A DNA stretch of 64,000 nt from Owenweeksia hongkongensis DSM 17368 (GTDB lineage: Bacteria > Bacteroidota > Bacteroidia > Flavobacteriales > Schleiferiaceae), in contig NC_016599.1 of NCBI RefSeq assembly GCF_000236705.1, positions 3,596,001-3,660,000 of the forward strand, given 5' to 3'. The notes beneath the pieces are model-generated. The model was not told the DNA's origin. It was given only the letters and a program-made list of their open reading frames with translations, and did no database searches. The position numbers and the translations under genes are program-made. Below are positions 7,864 through 22,436 of the stretch, piece by piece (the first letter of the stretch is position 1; each line of letters starts with the position of its first letter).

Positions 7864-8522
7864 TTGTTGCTAGTTTTTAAAGTTGTCAATTTATTGATAG
7901 TTTCTGCTGTGATGATTTTGTTTTGATCCAAATTTTGTTTGAGCATTTTTTTGATGGCCCATACAAAGTCTGTTTCTTTCATTTCATCAGTTGTCATTTC
8001 AATGTCCATAAGGCCACTGAAAATAGCAGGAAGATCTTCTTTGGTAAGTTGATCAATAGCATAGAGTAGTGCTTCTTTCTTTTCCCTTTCGGTTTTTTGG
8101 CGTTTTTTCCATAGTAGCATAATTGCAGCTACAGTGGTACTGGTGATTAGTATTGCTGTGAGATAACTGTGGCCATCAACATATTGTTGCCTTGCCAAAA
8201 GTCTATCAATGTTGAACATCATCAAGATTAATAATTCAAGGAGAATAGCAAATACCTGCCAGGGGGTGCTGGATCTGGATAATGTGAATAGTAAGGTAAT
8301 TGCCACCAAAGCAGGAACTACTAATAATGAAAGCATCCAAGTGAAGGTATCCCAGCTATCAGGATAGTTTACCACCAAGCTATGACCATTGAGATACAGT
8401 ACTGGACCTGATGGCATGTAAAAATAGAGGGTAGCCAGCAGTGGAACTGCTAAGGCTACCATCCATAATATTACATTCTTTAGTACCATTAAGCTGTAGC
8501 TGCTGGTATTTTGATTTTGCAT
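7860..8522 (-). CDS. Membrane protein with four predicted transmembrane helices
   Basis: This 220-aa protein has hydrophobic segments at about 13-31, 57-76, 86-103 and 121-139 (for example LLVVPALVAITLLFTL), then a cytoplasmic-looking charged helical tail of about 80 residues. Place (between small operon genes and tail fibres) and layout recall holin or phage membrane proteins, but the length is more than most holins and no holin family is recognised. The start lies within the end of 8489-8719 in another frame. Confidence 0.5.
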   Translation of the reverse strand: MQNQNTSSYSLMVLKNVILWMVALAVPLLATLYFYMPSGPVLYLNGHSLVVNYPDSWDTFTWMLSLLVVPALVAITLLFTLSRSSTPWQVFAILLELLILMMFNIDRLLARQQYVDGHSYLTAILITSTTVAAIMLLWKKRQKTEREKKEALLYAIDQLTKEDLPAIFSGLMDIEMTTDEMKETDFVWAIKKMLKQNLDQNKIITAETINKLTTLKTSNK

Positions 8523-8719
8523 TTATCCGGTTCACCAGCTGCATTGGTAGGTATGGTGTACACCAGTTGATTTTCTTCATTATAGAACTGGGTACCAACC
8601 GGTAGTTTTAATAGCATTTCTGCTTCTGCACTGGTACTATTGTTTGATCCTTCTACTTCAAATTGATTATCACCATTACATGATGTATTGAAGTTTCCGT
8701 TTCCGCATTCTTGTGACAT
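8489..8719 (-). CDS. Small protein, first gene of the fibre operon
   Basis: This 76-aa protein has an N-terminal half rich in Asn, Gly and Ser with two Cys (MSQECGNGNFNTSC), then a short beta-type segment (VGTQFYNEENQLVYTIP). No family is recognised. It overlaps the membrane protein gene by 34 bases. It follows the iteron-rich gap, so the operon promoter is expected in 8720-8860. Confidence 0.45.
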   Translation of the reverse strand: MSQECGNGNFNTSCNGDNQFEVEGSNNSTSAEAEMLLKLPVGTQFYNEENQLVYTIPTNAAGEPDKCKIKIPAATA

Positions 8720-8857
8720 AATTATAGTTTTTAGTGTTTAAAAATTAGCTAAGCAATATACTGTATTGTAGTGATTTTCTGTACTGCCAAAGCAGGAAAA
8801 TGGGTGAATGGTAGGTTTTTTTTAGGGAGTAAATATTGTACAAAGTGTGGAAAATAC

Positions 8858-9090
8858 TGTAACTGTGTAACCCTTACTTTTTTGGATAGGTAACATTCTG
8901 ATATTCAATTTTCTAATAAGTTGAAATGTAACTGTAACCAATGGGGAAATCAGTTTTTTAGAATTGTAACCGGCTTTACTACTCTTATAGAGTTACATTT
9001 TTTTTGTAACCAAATAAAAGAGTAACCAAAATATGTAACTGTCCAAATAGCTTATATATAGAACTTTACCCAAGAGGTTACAGAGTTACA
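8858..9090. repeat. GTAAC iteron cluster, candidate replication origin or operator
   Basis: The 593-base gap 8720-9312 holds no gene. Within 233 bases I count twelve copies of (T/A/G)GTAAC: plus-strand copies at 8858, 8866, 8889, 8927, 8933, 8965, 9005, 9021 and 9034, and inverted copies (GTTACA) at 8992, 9077 and 9085. The pair at 8927-8938 is a tandem TGTAACTGTAAC, and the same tandem is repeated upstream of the primase-helicase gene (13346-13357). T-rich and A-rich tracts lie between the copies. Short iterons beside a phage replication module fit an origin bound by a replication protein; a repressor operator array is the alternative. Confidence 0.6.
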
Positions 9091-9171
9091 CTTTTTTTTA
9101 CAAATATTGACCTAATGAGGGTTGTAAGGGATTGGCGGCCTCAGGAGATGGGAATAGTGGTGGGTTAAAAC

Positions 9172-9205
9172 AAAAAATCCCACCAGGAATTAACCTAGCG
9201 GGATT
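9172..9205 (-). terminator. Terminator after the truncated recombinase gene
   Basis: On the minus strand an interrupted stem (AATCCC with GGGATT, inner TAGG with CCTG) closes on TTAATT and is followed by TTTTTTG. It lies about 110 bases past the stop of the gene at 9313-9603. Confidence 0.6.
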
Positions 9206-9312
9206 GGCTATGAGGTATGTGATAGATAATCTAAGTATTAAGGGGGATTTGAGAAGTTTGATAAGGGGAGTAGTGAGGGATGATTAAAGCTGGTGACGCA
9301 GAACGTAATTTT

Positions 9313-9603
9313 TCAGCCAGCGTAGAAACCGACATGTGCAGGTACTTTATTCATCTTTTGATGATTACCCAGCATAAAATAAAGCTTAGCAATAGCCGCC
9401 CGCGCCTGCTTTCTACTCACAGGAGAAGAAATGGTAACCAGGTAGCTTATTATTTGCGAAGTGCTTATTCTGTCCGCTCCACATTTATGGTAATTCAAAA
9501 AGTACTTTGTCATACAGCAATATTGCTCTACTGTGCTTTTCGCCAGCTGCTCAGCTTGCAGGTATTTTCTAAATCTTGTAAGTAATTCATTTGGATTGTA
9601 CAT
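9313..9603 (-). CDS. N-terminal fragment of a tyrosine recombinase
   Basis: This 96-aa protein matches the SAM-like core-binding domain of XerC/integron-type tyrosine recombinases: LLTRFRKYLQAEQLAKSTVE, then KYFLNYHK, SQIISYLV and ARAAIAKLYFMLGN. Full-length relatives go on with a linker and a catalytic domain of about 180 aa that holds R-K-H-R-H-Y. Here the frame stops after NKVPAHVGFYAG and I see no catalytic domain in the next bases in any frame. It is therefore a relic, or a stand-alone DNA-binding piece. It sits next to a palindrome and a cassette-like gene. Confidence 0.55.
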   Translation of the reverse strand: MYNPNELLTRFRKYLQAEQLAKSTVEQYCCMTKYFLNYHKCGADRISTSQIISYLVTISSPVSRKQARAAIAKLYFMLGNHQKMNKVPAHVGFYAG

Positions 9604-10482: not shown

Positions 10483-13338
10483 TTAAAATGGTAAGTCATC
10501 ATCATCATCCTGATCTGTAAGGGCCTGCCCTAGCTTGGCTTGTGTTTGCTTAGATGGGGTGAAGGCTGTTCCTTCTCCTTTTTCATCATTGATGGTGGTA
10601 TCAAAAGCCTTGATGTAAATGTGCTCTTCTGCTTTGCCTTCATGTTTTCTGATGATTCTACCTCCACTGTTTTTTAGTGAAGGTGGATTGAGCTCATATT
10701 CATGGTATCTGCAGAAAGCTTTGAGGGCTATGGTAAATTTGTTGGTACTCCACTTGTGCCTGTCTCTAGGGTTGTGATTGAAATAATTATCCATGGCCAC
10801 ACTCTTAGGGATAAGGGTGTCACAGTTTACTGAGCTTTCTGAGAAATACACTTCTGCCCACTCTTTAAATGGATCTGTCATGGCTACTACCAAATTCCTC
10901 TTGTGTACATTTTCCATTGGTGGATCTATCTTATCATTATTGAGATAGCACACCAGTGCATGGGCCATGGTATTGAAGAATAGGTCCCACTCATTTTTAT
11001 CAAAATCCTGAAAGAGGTTTTTGCCAAACTCCAGAGCTGGACTCCAGTCTCTTTCATACTCACCATCTTTATTAAAGTGGTAATAGTCTGAGAATACTGT
11101 GTAGAGAATCCTTCTTACTGTGGATGAATCTGTATTTCTAAGGCCAAAGTTGGAGGTGATGGCAATTTTTGGAACTTCCTCAAAGGGCAGCTCATATTGC
11201 TTACCATGCTTGGGGTTTACATTCATTTCTCCTGTAAGTGCACTGTAGAAAAAATCAAACTTGAGGTACTGATTAGCATCATCTACCAGTACATAATCTG
11301 TATGGCTGGTCACATTTTCCCAGATGTGTGGGTTTTCTGTAAGCCTTGGGTTTCTACCTTCCAGGGTAACATATTTCATAAAGTACCTGATGGCTTTGTA
11401 GGCTATGGATTTACCTGATCCACCACTGGACTCACCATCATCACTTATCTTATTATCCATAGCATATACTGCCCATGGCCTGTTGCTATCCTTATACCTG
11501 TGCAGAAGGTAGCCCAGTGAGTATAGCTTATTGATAAGGTGCAGCCTTTGCTCATACAGCATATCATCAGATAGCTTAAGGCCATCAGCATGTAGCTTTT
11601 CCTGTTCTTTCCAGTAAATTCTGGAGGTATTGATAAGGTACTTGAGGAACAGACAATCTGTTTTATGGATTTTGATATCCAATCTGCCTTTGGCATCATC
11701 AAAATACACTTCATAGGGTGGAGTATCCAGCACTTTTACTTTGTGCTTCATTACTTCATCAGCCCACACAAACTTTTTTACCTCTCCTGGCTTGTACTCT
11801 TTTATTCCATTTTGATCTACCTCCCATGTGCTTTGCTCAAAAAAGAAGTATTGGCTCTTGCTGGTATAGTCTGTAAAGTCAATTTCTATAAGAGAAAGGT
11901 TGCTGAGGGACTGCTCACCTAGCTTGTTTGGTGAATTGTAAAAGGTGTTTCTGATATCCGGATCCACTTTTCTTTCTTCCAGAAACTTGTTTACAAAGTT
12001 TTTGATTTCAACCGGGTCAATTTCCTGCACCTGATTGCCTTCTATATGAATATAGATGTAGCCAGTTTTGGTATTGGGCAACCTAAACCTATAGTATCCA
12101 TTGGCTTCAAGAAAGGTGTAGAGCTGCAGTGGATTGATAGCATAGGTTTTGTACCTCAGTTTTTTGGCAGTGTCATACTTCCACTTTACATCCCACATTC
12201 TATAAGGGATGGCCAGCTTTATGAGCTCTCTAAGTTCATAAGACCTGTAGTGCTGCAGAAAATCTCTTACATCCTTACAGGGGTTTCCTCTGTGGTCTCT
12301 CTTTTGGGTGAGCTCTTCTGGCAGTTTTACATTATGCAAATCCAAAAACTGCATACACAGCCTGTGGCTTTGCCTTATACCAGGTGCGTCAATATCTCCT
12401 ATCCTGCATATTTTCCAGCCCCATTTTTCTAGCTGGGCAAACTGGCTTTCTTTAAGGATGGCACTTTCACTATTGAGCCAAATAACCGGAAAACCTAATG
12501 CCATTACTGAAAGGGCATCTCTATCACCAGAACACCAAACAATTTCAGGGATTTTTTTGGTTTTTCTTTCTTCCTTTTGCTTATCAGGATCATCACTCTG
12601 GTAGTCATCATCCTCAGCTTCATTGAGCTTGTCATAGGCTTTTCTTACCAAGTGTAAGCCCATGATGAAATCCTTTGGTCTGGTGCCAAAGTATCTAAAC
12701 CTATCTGCCTTATTATGGGCTTTGGGTTCCAGCCTTTTTCCCCATCTGCCCTTTACTTTATCATCAAATACAAACTGAAAAATGGGGTACTGTGCAGTAC
12801 TTTTATTGATGTACTGCATTAGCTCACCAGTGCTTTTGCTTTTTCTTACATAGGTGTAGCTTTTTAGAGAATACAAAAACTGCTTGGCAGCCATTTCTGC
12901 AGTAAACATTTTACCACCTACCAGTTCAAGCTCTTGTGGTGTCCAGTCTTTATCTTCATAAAAATAATCACCTTCATTTTGGTCAGCAGTAGCTGGCTTT
13001 ATTTCAAAATCAGCTTTTATGAGTGGTTTTTCATCAGCCCCTTTTACATTGAAATGAGCTGCCAAAAACTGTAGTGCTTCTTTATACTCCATGCCTTCTT
13101 CCAGCATATAGCATTGCACTCCATTTCTTGGTTTTTGGTCTCCCCCAAAATCTGTTACTACCCAGTTGCCATCCTCTAGCTTTTTGATAGCAGCTGAGGC
13201 AGTTTTTTCAGTACCTCTACATTTAAATTTTTTCCTTTTATCACTTTCACAACCATGGGCTTGTGGGTACACCATAAAGATGATTTCCAGTCCACCATTG
13301 GTAGCTTCCAGTAGTTCTTCTTGAGATATGTATGCCAT
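10483..13338 (-). CDS. Phage-type primase-helicase (Toprim-like plus SF3-type ATPase)
   Basis: This 951-aa protein is the replication protein of the element. The first 100 residues look like a worn CHC2-type zinc-binding primase domain (Cys29, Cys39). At about 271 comes GDRDALSV, and later IGDIDAPG, which fit a Toprim-like fold. At about 637-644 lies the Walker A GGSGKS, followed by YVLVDDA (Walker B) and KIAITSNF (sensor), as in superfamily 3 helicases of phages and satellites (D5/DUF5906 type). The C-terminal tail is acidic (DQDDDDDLPF), like tails that bind SSB-type partners. A tandem GTAAC iteron pair lies 8-19 bases before its start codon, shared with the array at 8858-9090, which suggests it binds there or is controlled there. 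Confidence 0.8.
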   Translation of the reverse strand: MAYISQEELLEATNGGLEIIFMVYPQAHGCESDKRKKFKCRGTEKTASAAIKKLEDGNWVVTDFGGDQKPRNGVQCYMLEEGMEYKEALQFLAAHFNVKGADEKPLIKADFEIKPATADQNEGDYFYEDKDWTPQELELVGGKMFTAEMAAKQFLYSLKSYTYVRKSKSTGELMQYINKSTAQYPIFQFVFDDKVKGRWGKRLEPKAHNKADRFRYFGTRPKDFIMGLHLVRKAYDKLNEAEDDDYQSDDPDKQKEERKTKKIPEIVWCSGDRDALSVMALGFPVIWLNSESAILKESQFAQLEKWGWKICRIGDIDAPGIRQSHRLCMQFLDLHNVKLPEELTQKRDHRGNPCKDVRDFLQHYRSYELRELIKLAIPYRMWDVKWKYDTAKKLRYKTYAINPLQLYTFLEANGYYRFRLPNTKTGYIYIHIEGNQVQEIDPVEIKNFVNKFLEERKVDPDIRNTFYNSPNKLGEQSLSNLSLIEIDFTDYTSKSQYFFFEQSTWEVDQNGIKEYKPGEVKKFVWADEVMKHKVKVLDTPPYEVYFDDAKGRLDIKIHKTDCLFLKYLINTSRIYWKEQEKLHADGLKLSDDMLYEQRLHLINKLYSLGYLLHRYKDSNRPWAVYAMDNKISDDGESSGGSGKSIAYKAIRYFMKYVTLEGRNPRLTENPHIWENVTSHTDYVLVDDANQYLKFDFFYSALTGEMNVNPKHGKQYELPFEEVPKIAITSNFGLRNTDSSTVRRILYTVFSDYYHFNKDGEYERDWSPALEFGKNLFQDFDKNEWDLFFNTMAHALVCYLNNDKIDPPMENVHKRNLVVAMTDPFKEWAEVYFSESSVNCDTLIPKSVAMDNYFNHNPRDRHKWSTNKFTIALKAFCRYHEYELNPPSLKNSGGRIIRKHEGKAEEHIYIKAFDTTINDEKGEGTAFTPSKQTQAKLGQALTDQDDDDDLPF

Positions 13339-13345
13339 TATGAGG

Positions 13346-13357
13346 GTTACAGTTACA
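13346..13357. promoter_or_regulatory. Tandem GTTACA pair before the primase-helicase start
   Basis: Two copies of GTTACA in direct tandem end upstream of the ATG at 13338. On the minus strand they read TGTAACTGTAAC, identical to the pair at 8927-8938 of the iteron cluster. The place, right at the ribosome-binding region, suits control of the replication gene by a protein that also binds the cluster. Confidence 0.5.
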
Positions 13358-14798: not shown

Positions 14799-15571
14799 TG
14801 CTTGAGATTTGAAGGTTTACCTGTGGTGCTGAGCACTTCAAATTCTACTACCCAAACCCAAGGATTTAAAGACCATGATGATTCACCATTGATGGATTGC
14901 CAGAGTGATTTGAAAGAACCATCAGGGTGTTTAAAAAATCTATTAGGAAAATCTCCAATCAAATAATCTTTATACCGTCTTGTGTGAAATGTATCTTCAT
15001 CAAACAGCACACCTTCTGCTACTGCATCCACTTCACAGATATCCTGCAGCCTTTCCACTCTCACCTCTTTCACTTTTAGCCAAATTCTGGCAGCAGCTTT
15101 GGGCATGTGGATAGAGGGTTTCCAAGGGTTTGGTTTTACAAAGGAGAAGCTCTCATCATCATCAAACTTTATGATTCCTTTATTCTCAAGCTGTTCTATG
15201 TAGTTGAGCATCCATAATTGATCTTCAGTAGGATCATAGGCAGGTAACCAACATTGGGCTTGGTCCTTATATTCATATAAAGCGGTTCCATCTTCCCAGT
15301 CCCATCCTGAAATTTTCCAAGATTCTCTTACATAAAGGATTTCACCAGCTGAGTAAGGGATTTTGAAGAATGATTCTCCAAACTTACCTGATGGGTGATG
15401 TTTTCCCCTTACAGAAAAAGAGCCTTTAGGAGTGAAAGCCGTGAAGCCAATTTGCGCATCAGTAATATTCTTATTGCCAAATTTTACTATCCTCCTGGTC
15501 TGAGTTTTTCTACCATCCAAAATGGCTTGGATCATAGAGGATTGGAAGAAGATGTATTTTTGATTTTTCAT
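14795..15571 (-). CDS. ASCH-like phage protein
   Basis: This 258-aa protein begins with IQAILDGRKTQTRRIVKFG, and later has AGEILYVRESWKI, KPSIHMPKAAARIWLKVKEV and RVERLQDICEVDAVAEG. This series is the hallmark of a phage family with an ASCH-type (PUA-like) fold, often noted as morphogenesis or RNA-binding proteins. The fold binds nucleic acids, and some members of the wider superfamily act on modified bases. It lies next to a DNA methyltransferase, so a link with modified DNA is possible but not shown. Confidence 0.7.
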   Translation of the reverse strand: MKNQKYIFFQSSMIQAILDGRKTQTRRIVKFGNKNITDAQIGFTAFTPKGSFSVRGKHHPSGKFGESFFKIPYSAGEILYVRESWKISGWDWEDGTALYEYKDQAQCWLPAYDPTEDQLWMLNYIEQLENKGIIKFDDDESFSFVKPNPWKPSIHMPKAAARIWLKVKEVRVERLQDICEVDAVAEGVLFDEDTFHTRRYKDYLIGDFPNRFFKHPDGSFKSLWQSINGESSWSLNPWVWVVEFEVLSTTGKPSNLKQ

Positions 15572-22302: not shown

Positions 22303-22436
22303 TGTATACAAATTATCGAAGTACTCATGTATACAGAATTGAATTTAAGACCTTGAAACTCCTTTTAATCGTGGAAATGGGGATGAAGGAGTCTTGTATA
22401 CAAACGGCCTAAAATGAGTTAGTTTGCTTGTATACA
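22303..22436. repeat. Four TGTATACA sites
   Basis: The palindrome TGTATACA occurs at 22303, 22328, 22395 and 22429. The second and fourth are both followed by GAATTG, so the repeat unit is longer than the palindrome. They lie upstream of the minus-strand ladder of tiny genes and at the start of a 1.2-kb gene-free stretch, fit for operators of one of the HTH proteins or for an origin. Confidence 0.5.

Follow-up and report, generated by a model that had tools for sequence, protein, structure and literature searches.

A GTAAC iteron array as the proposed replication origin of a Bacteroidota tailed prophage, with words that covary with the wing of the phage primase-helicase

In a 64,000-nucleotide stretch of the Owenweeksia hongkongensis chromosome (hereafter the window), twelve copies of the word GTAAC form an array between the early and late genes of a tailed prophage, and we consider it very likely that this array is the replication origin of the prophage, bound by the phage's own primase-helicase through the wing of its C-terminal winged-helix domain. 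To our knowledge, most temperate phages of Bacteroidota lack an annotated origin, and a literature search on these arrays found nothing. The enzyme very probably binds the array, because the array word covaries with the wing across relatives and was predicted from the wing in loci held out beforehand. Origin activity is argued for in turn by the probable binding of a replication enzyme, by the position of the array, and by parallels with the replication systems of PICIs and phage P4. The array and its surroundings comprise the following features:

8858..9090, no strand assigned: GTAAC iteron array of 12 copies, proposed phage replication origin on the basis of the cluster count and a geometry kept in relatives
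8858..8871, plus strand: outer direct pair on the late-operon side, 8-bp spacing, inverted relative to the other outer pair
8991..9010, no strand assigned: central palindrome GTTAC-A/T tract-GTAAC (GTTAC-N9-GTAAC), 14-bp register
9077..9090, minus strand: outer direct pair on the early-operon side, GTAAC-N3-GTAAC, 8-bp spacing
8720..8857, no strand assigned: A+T-rich late-side flank with 70% AT (61% in the window), a candidate for the melting region, a late promoter or both
9176..9205, minus strand: terminator-like hairpin and T run that close the early operon immediately ahead of the array
8489..8719, minus strand: first gene past the array (76 aa), opening the late operon of fibre, lysis and structural genes

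The twelve copies that the initial annotation had counted were all recovered at their positions, nine on the plus strand (8859, 8867, 8890, 8928, 8934, 8966, 9006, 9022 and 9035) and three on the minus strand (8992, 9077 and 9085). No other 233-bp segment of the 64-kb window is as dense in GTAAC, and among all pentamers compared only AAAAA clusters more tightly. The annotation had proposed counting the word against its background, and the outcome depends on scale: the gap at 8720-9312 (593 bp) holds 12 copies against 1.6 expected from 2,000 dinucleotide shuffles (sd 1.2, maximum 7), whereas the 109 copies in the whole window barely exceed the 93.6 expected, so the signal is the cluster and not the word. 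The tandem TGTAACTGTAAC occurs at four sites in the 4.0-Mb genome, namely in the array, at 13346-13357 just 5' of the primase-helicase gene, where it had also been reported, and twice in a repeat-rich frame at 2.276 Mb. The latter two, outside the prophage, are accounted for by a VTVT-like coding repeat; in this repeat-rich coding region of the host chromosome (L001, 1-3012), many GTAAC words arise from the codon usage of the repeat.

The early genes of the prophage (a LuxR-type regulator, small genes, a methylase and the primase-helicase) are on the minus strand, as are the late genes, which run past the window and encode fibres, lysis proteins, a conserved protein that we call D1, capsid protease, capsid, portal and a terminase-like protein. 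With early genes on one side and late structural genes on the other, the array lies intact inside a tailed prophage. The initial annotation had suggested that the array divides two operons. It does mark the boundary between early and late genes, but since the early operon also runs on the minus strand, the array comes, in transcription order, after the terminator at 9205-9176 and before the late operon. It sits where a late promoter would be, and a transcriptional role could coexist with one in replication. Beside the array, at 9313-9603, is a 96-aa ORF corresponding to the N-terminal SAM-like domain of a tyrosine integrase only, without the catalytic domain; the Polaribacter phage Leef_1 has a 287-aa integrase at the matching place. 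Elsewhere, at 22303-22436, four perfect TGTATACA palindromes (22303, 22328, 22395 and 22429) stand in the gap that bounds the early region of the prophage on the right, and are probably a separate operator array.

The proposed initiator and the sites associated with it are arranged as follows:

10483..13338, minus strand: primase-helicase of 951 aa with a DnaG-like N-terminus, a TOPRIM primase, an SF3 helicase and a C-terminal winged helix, proposed initiator
10603..10923, minus strand: C-terminal winged-helix domain, residues 806-912
10609..10659, minus strand: wing, residues 894-910, beginning RIIRK, in which R894 and K898 covary with the word
13346..13357, minus strand: tandem TGTAACTGTAAC pair, sites 13346/13352, 8 bp 5' of the primase-helicase ATG, proposed autoregulatory site

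An AlphaFold2 model of the enzyme has a mean pLDDT of 85.5, with 93 for the C-terminal winged helix. The TOPRIM part matches the T7 gp4 primase (Z 15.3), while the best match of the helicase part is the SaPI5 primase-helicase (7om0/7ola; Z 19.9, rmsd 4.3 over 343 residues, 10% identity), with the poxvirus D5/E5 helicases also matched. Pfam assigned no named domain to the window enzyme and found DUF5906 in 13 of 26 family members. A Foldseek search with the isolated C-terminal domain gave no significant match (best E 0.19). By VIA-align, the winged helix of RFX1 is among the better matches to this domain (1dp7, Z 6.2, rmsd 3.0, 70 residues; 8zjr, Z 6.6, rmsd 3.3, 76 residues), and the plasmid initiator RepE on its iteron scores low (Z 5.0). 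We treat both the RFX1 and the RepE matches as leads, not as proof. In the model, the first strand of the wing spans residues 895-899, which places R894 at the start of the strand and K898 within it.

Relatives of the enzyme were collected as 160 loci from viral contigs and Bacteroidota genomes in scans with a four-sequence enzyme alignment, to which the window, Bacteroides phage BT-TP2, Leef_1 and two elements of one same-family genome were added (about 165 in total). The alignment query was needed, as an exact-peptide scan of viral contigs with the window protein alone gave no match. BT-TP2 and Leef_1 are the annotated relatives. At least 8 GTAA[CT] words fall within 270 bp somewhere 3' of the gene in 92 of the 158 loci with enough downstream DNA, and the reversed word, used as a control, mostly gives 3 to 7. 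When all word types are considered, an array word could be assigned 3' of the gene in 110/145 loci with 5 kb or more of DNA downstream, and about a quarter of these relatives have no callable array. The expectation that homologous primase-helicase genes would have such arrays nearby is thus borne out for most relatives. The arrays are always 3' of the gene, 0.2 to 9 kb off, and other genes may intervene.

The words used across the family are GTAAC, GTAAT, GTAAG, TTAAC, GCAAC, GTGA, TGTAT and CTGTA. De novo scans of loci without GTAAY arrays often found another word in the same layout; these scores partly overlap those of controls (upstream regions, 95th percentile 10.7, maximum 16), and weak cases were therefore left uncounted. 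In a divergent group of about 29% identity, arrays of the TGTAT type lie 150 to 430 bp beyond the 3' end of the gene. Some single loci have peculiarities of their own. BT-TP2 (L010) has an extra GTAAC pair with 8-bp spacing at 15131-15143, far from its array, and stray GTAAC pairs occur just 3' of the primase gene in L018, L019, L020 and L022. The same-family genome mentioned above (L013, 10070-12896) carries a pair of very similar prophages separated by about 28 kb, one of them with a primase-helicase frame split into parts of 520 and 456 aa.

The layout of the words is conserved along with their presence. Neighbouring words in the same orientation are overwhelmingly spaced 8 bp apart in the relatives, and the array is opened by an outer plus-plus pair and closed by an outer minus-minus pair, both at this spacing. 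Both outer pairs are found in 49 of 80 distinct arrays, where random placement would yield 0.05, and a minus/plus palindrome at 13-15 bp in 51 of 80 (26/92 under random placement). From phage to phage, the gaps between the fixed sites change by roughly one helical turn (42 or 54, 8 or 17, 15 or 26), and the span of the array ranges from about 210 to 290 bp. A terminator-like hairpin lies on the early side of 35 of 79 arrays and on the late side of 4, with 4.7 expected at random. The arrays are 69.5% AT, compared with 57.5% for the whole loci, and an A+T-rich block extends about 100 bp further on the late side. Several copies of a short word in non-coding DNA near an initiator gene, next to an A+T-rich region, are features that these arrays have in common with iteron-type origins. 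DnaA boxes are mildly above expectation near the arrays (16 vs 8), and GC skew shows no sign change at the array over 59 distinct loci. A GC-skew switch is common at origins without defining them, and is often weak in temperate phages, which are mostly copied within the host chromosome.

The evidence that ties the array to the primase-helicase is covariation between the word and single residues of the wing. The array words were fixed first, and the protein columns were examined afterwards. In phylogenetically separate close pairs, the column of window residue K898 ranks top among all columns of the primase: residue 898 differs in 19/23 pairs with different words and in 9/33 pairs with the same word (p = 4.8e-5 uncorrected, 0.046 after correction for 951 columns). 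It is K or R in all 74 GTAAC loci and in one of the 15 GTAAT loci, the other 14 having N, S, T, L, Y or H, and it is W in both GTAAG loci of the first set. For pairs in which the word differs as C versus T, the residue changes in the expected direction in 12 of 13. The word and the residue agree in 48 of 49 cases in clades that contain both words, a level reached by none of 20,000 permutations; the sole exception, L035, has R898 with mostly GTAAT in an array of mixed C and T words. The first base of the word appears to be tied to a second position, since R894 is kept in 107/107 labelled loci with other words and lost in 6/6 TTAAC loci. Q896 marks the GCAAC and GTGA loci. Spirosoma arboris provides a natural near-isogenic case, with two prophages whose primase-helicases are 87.5% identical, one pairing K with GTAAC and the other S with GTAAT. 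Identity over the whole C-terminal domain discriminates weakly (the difference between same-word and different-word pairs is 0.034, about equal to that for residues 41-100), and only single columns, not the whole domain, resolve the word difference. One locus, L251, has a strong TGTAT-type array about 8.7 kb 3' of the primase gene, though its wing reads RIITH.

With the rule fixed beforehand, we predicted words for a held-out set of 58 loci from two further scans of new contigs, from which duplicates of earlier loci had been removed. An array could be called in 37 of these, and a complete prediction was available for 31. The predicted word was right in 28 of the 31, where the best of 20,000 shuffles reached 19. 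GTAAG is the word in all six W898 loci, of which five are closely related, and TTAAC is that of three loci without R894. As for the misses, L190 has R898 with mostly GTAAT and the same loop type as L035, L322 has TTAAG where TTAAC was predicted, and in L257 the loop was misaligned.

Taken as a mechanism, these observations suggest that the primase-helicase binds GTAAC words through the wing of its C-terminal winged helix, in which R894 is predicted to recognise the first G and K898 the G opposite the last C. Multiple copies of the enzyme would load in the fixed layout of two inverted outer direct pairs and a central palindrome, probably assembling SF3 helicase rings that would open the A+T-rich flank and prime synthesis. 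Through the tandem copy 5' of its gene, the enzyme may dampen its own synthesis, and this pair looks autoregulatory. In 10 of 101 distinct loci, the 60 bp 5' of the enzyme start contain two or more copies of the word, always in gene orientation and usually 8 bp apart, at -7 to -31; the pair in the window has a 6-bp spacing instead. The initial annotation had read the array as an iteron-type origin with autoregulation of the primase-helicase, and this reading gains support from the retention of the array with the enzyme, from the covariation of words and wing, including in held-out loci, and from these 5' tandems. Neither ground for refutation that it had named, a lack of enrichment here over the background or a lack of such arrays in related elements, was borne out.

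Parallels to several known replication systems are consistent with this proposal. The Rep (Pri-Rep) of PICIs, including SaPIs, is an SF3 initiator helicase, sometimes fused to a primase, with its ori immediately 3' of rep and consisting of repeated short sites in two sets and an A+T-rich region (PMC6092414). The window system shares the SF3 helicase (its closest match being that of SaPI5), the site 3' of the gene, the repeated short sites and the A+T-rich region. It differs in that its primase is of the TOPRIM type, its 5-bp words occur in both orientations with outer inverted 8-bp pairs, and the array can be separated from the 3' end of the gene by 0.2 to 9 kb that may include other genes. 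The element itself is a complete tailed temperate phage of Bacteroidota and no PICI, as it encodes a capsid protease, capsid, terminase and portal of its own. Satellite phage P4 has short sites at two places in its genome, and its alpha protein combines a primase and an SF3 helicase with a C-terminal DNA-binding domain. Alpha has both primase and helicase activity in one protein and replicates P4 from its own site (PMC6092414, PMC7145576). By description, which is how we compared it, alpha resembles the window enzyme in the fusion of a TOPRIM primase to an SF3 helicase and a C-terminal winged helix, whereas words and geometry differ from those of P4 ori and crr, and what stands as a second site here, a small tandem 5' of the gene, is confined to a minority of loci and is not a second array required in general. 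The crenarchaeal plasmid pRN1 encodes a primase-helicase replication protein, ORF904, and has an essential origin downstream of its gene (PMC4234260), the same arrangement as in the window; in pRN1, however, the element is an iteron-free stem-loop of 100 nt, and in the window it is a repeat array. The best reading of these comparisons is that the array and the enzyme would work like the Rep-ori of PICIs and the alpha-ori of P4.

For the wing, the comparison of interest is RFX1, a winged-helix protein that reads the major groove of the X-box half-site mainly with wing W1 (PMC8998557, PMC2533330), such half-sites being, for example, GTTACC and RRNRAC (PMC2375033). Reading of a half-site by the wing and the place of RFX1 among the better structural matches raise the possibility that the phage wing reads its word in an RFX1-like mode. 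RFX1 is a eukaryotic transcription factor, and a Z below 8 at 14-16% identity does not imply a shared ancestor.

If the primase-helicase does bind the array, it could do so mainly as a transcription switch that blocks or activates the late operon, with replication starting elsewhere. The array is always placed after the terminator-like end of the early operon and before the late operon, a regulatory capacity of the enzyme is suggested by the pair 5' of its gene, and GC skew gives no origin signal. We nevertheless find this improbable, as about 12 sites in a fixed 220-260-bp layout far exceed what a switch needs, SF3 initiators with a C-terminal DNA-binding domain bind origins in PICIs and P4, and the array travels with the replication enzyme while the genes past it differ (in the window, fibre and lysis genes lie between the array and D1).

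Less probable still, by about half, is that the array separates the operons as an operator array for another phage protein, the candidates being D1 and the LuxR-type regulator. D1, usually the first gene after the array (as in L014, 4133-4723) and without a Pfam or PHROG match, is present in 98/116 labelled loci, and a LuxR-type gene in 59. Neither protein has a column comparable to primase 898, that is, one that splits GTAAC from GTAAT with sensible residues; moreover, the LuxR-type gene is absent from half of the loci, and in the window D1 is about 10 kb from the array. The initial annotation had offered a repressor operator array as its second reading, which may stand as an extra role of the array, but the conserved reader is the replication enzyme, and no other tested gene covaries with the word.

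The size of the array (233 bp) and its outer inverted pairs also resemble the arm-site region of a phage attachment site for a tyrosine integrase, and both the integrase N-terminal-domain gene at 9313-9603 and the Leef_1 integrase adjoin arrays. This explanation is largely refuted and very unlikely: the array stays whole in the interior of the integrated prophage, with no division into attL and attR, the gene families that flank most arrays include no recurrent tyrosine integrase, and the word covaries with the primase-helicase. Chance or compositional clustering in an A+T-rich gap, which the 70% AT of the array and the slight window-wide enrichment of GTAAC might suggest, has a negligible probability and is refuted by the shuffles (12 copies against 1.6 expected, maximum 7), the conserved geometry and the prediction of words in unseen loci.

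Returning to the array as an origin read by the primase-helicase, a broader proposal, for and against which we see about equal odds, is that these loci form a phylum-wide family of phage origins in which R894 would set the first base of the word (G, or T if R is lost) and residue 898 the last (C for K or R, T for small or polar residues, G for W), with the geometry fixed, such that related phages would keep mutually exclusive origins. The wing would then read DNA like that of RFX1, and the inverted outer pairs would place two opposing helicase rings. New elements are the scale and host range of the family, the displacement of the origin from the gene, the two-sided layout that is conserved, and the wing code. 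With the rule, such origins can be located in sequence data, their reader can be named, and two amino acids suffice to predict the word. The rule makes testable, within one family and with natural near-isogenic pairs, how SF3 initiators may change origin specificity without loss of function, and the family offers small replicons for Bacteroidota genetics.
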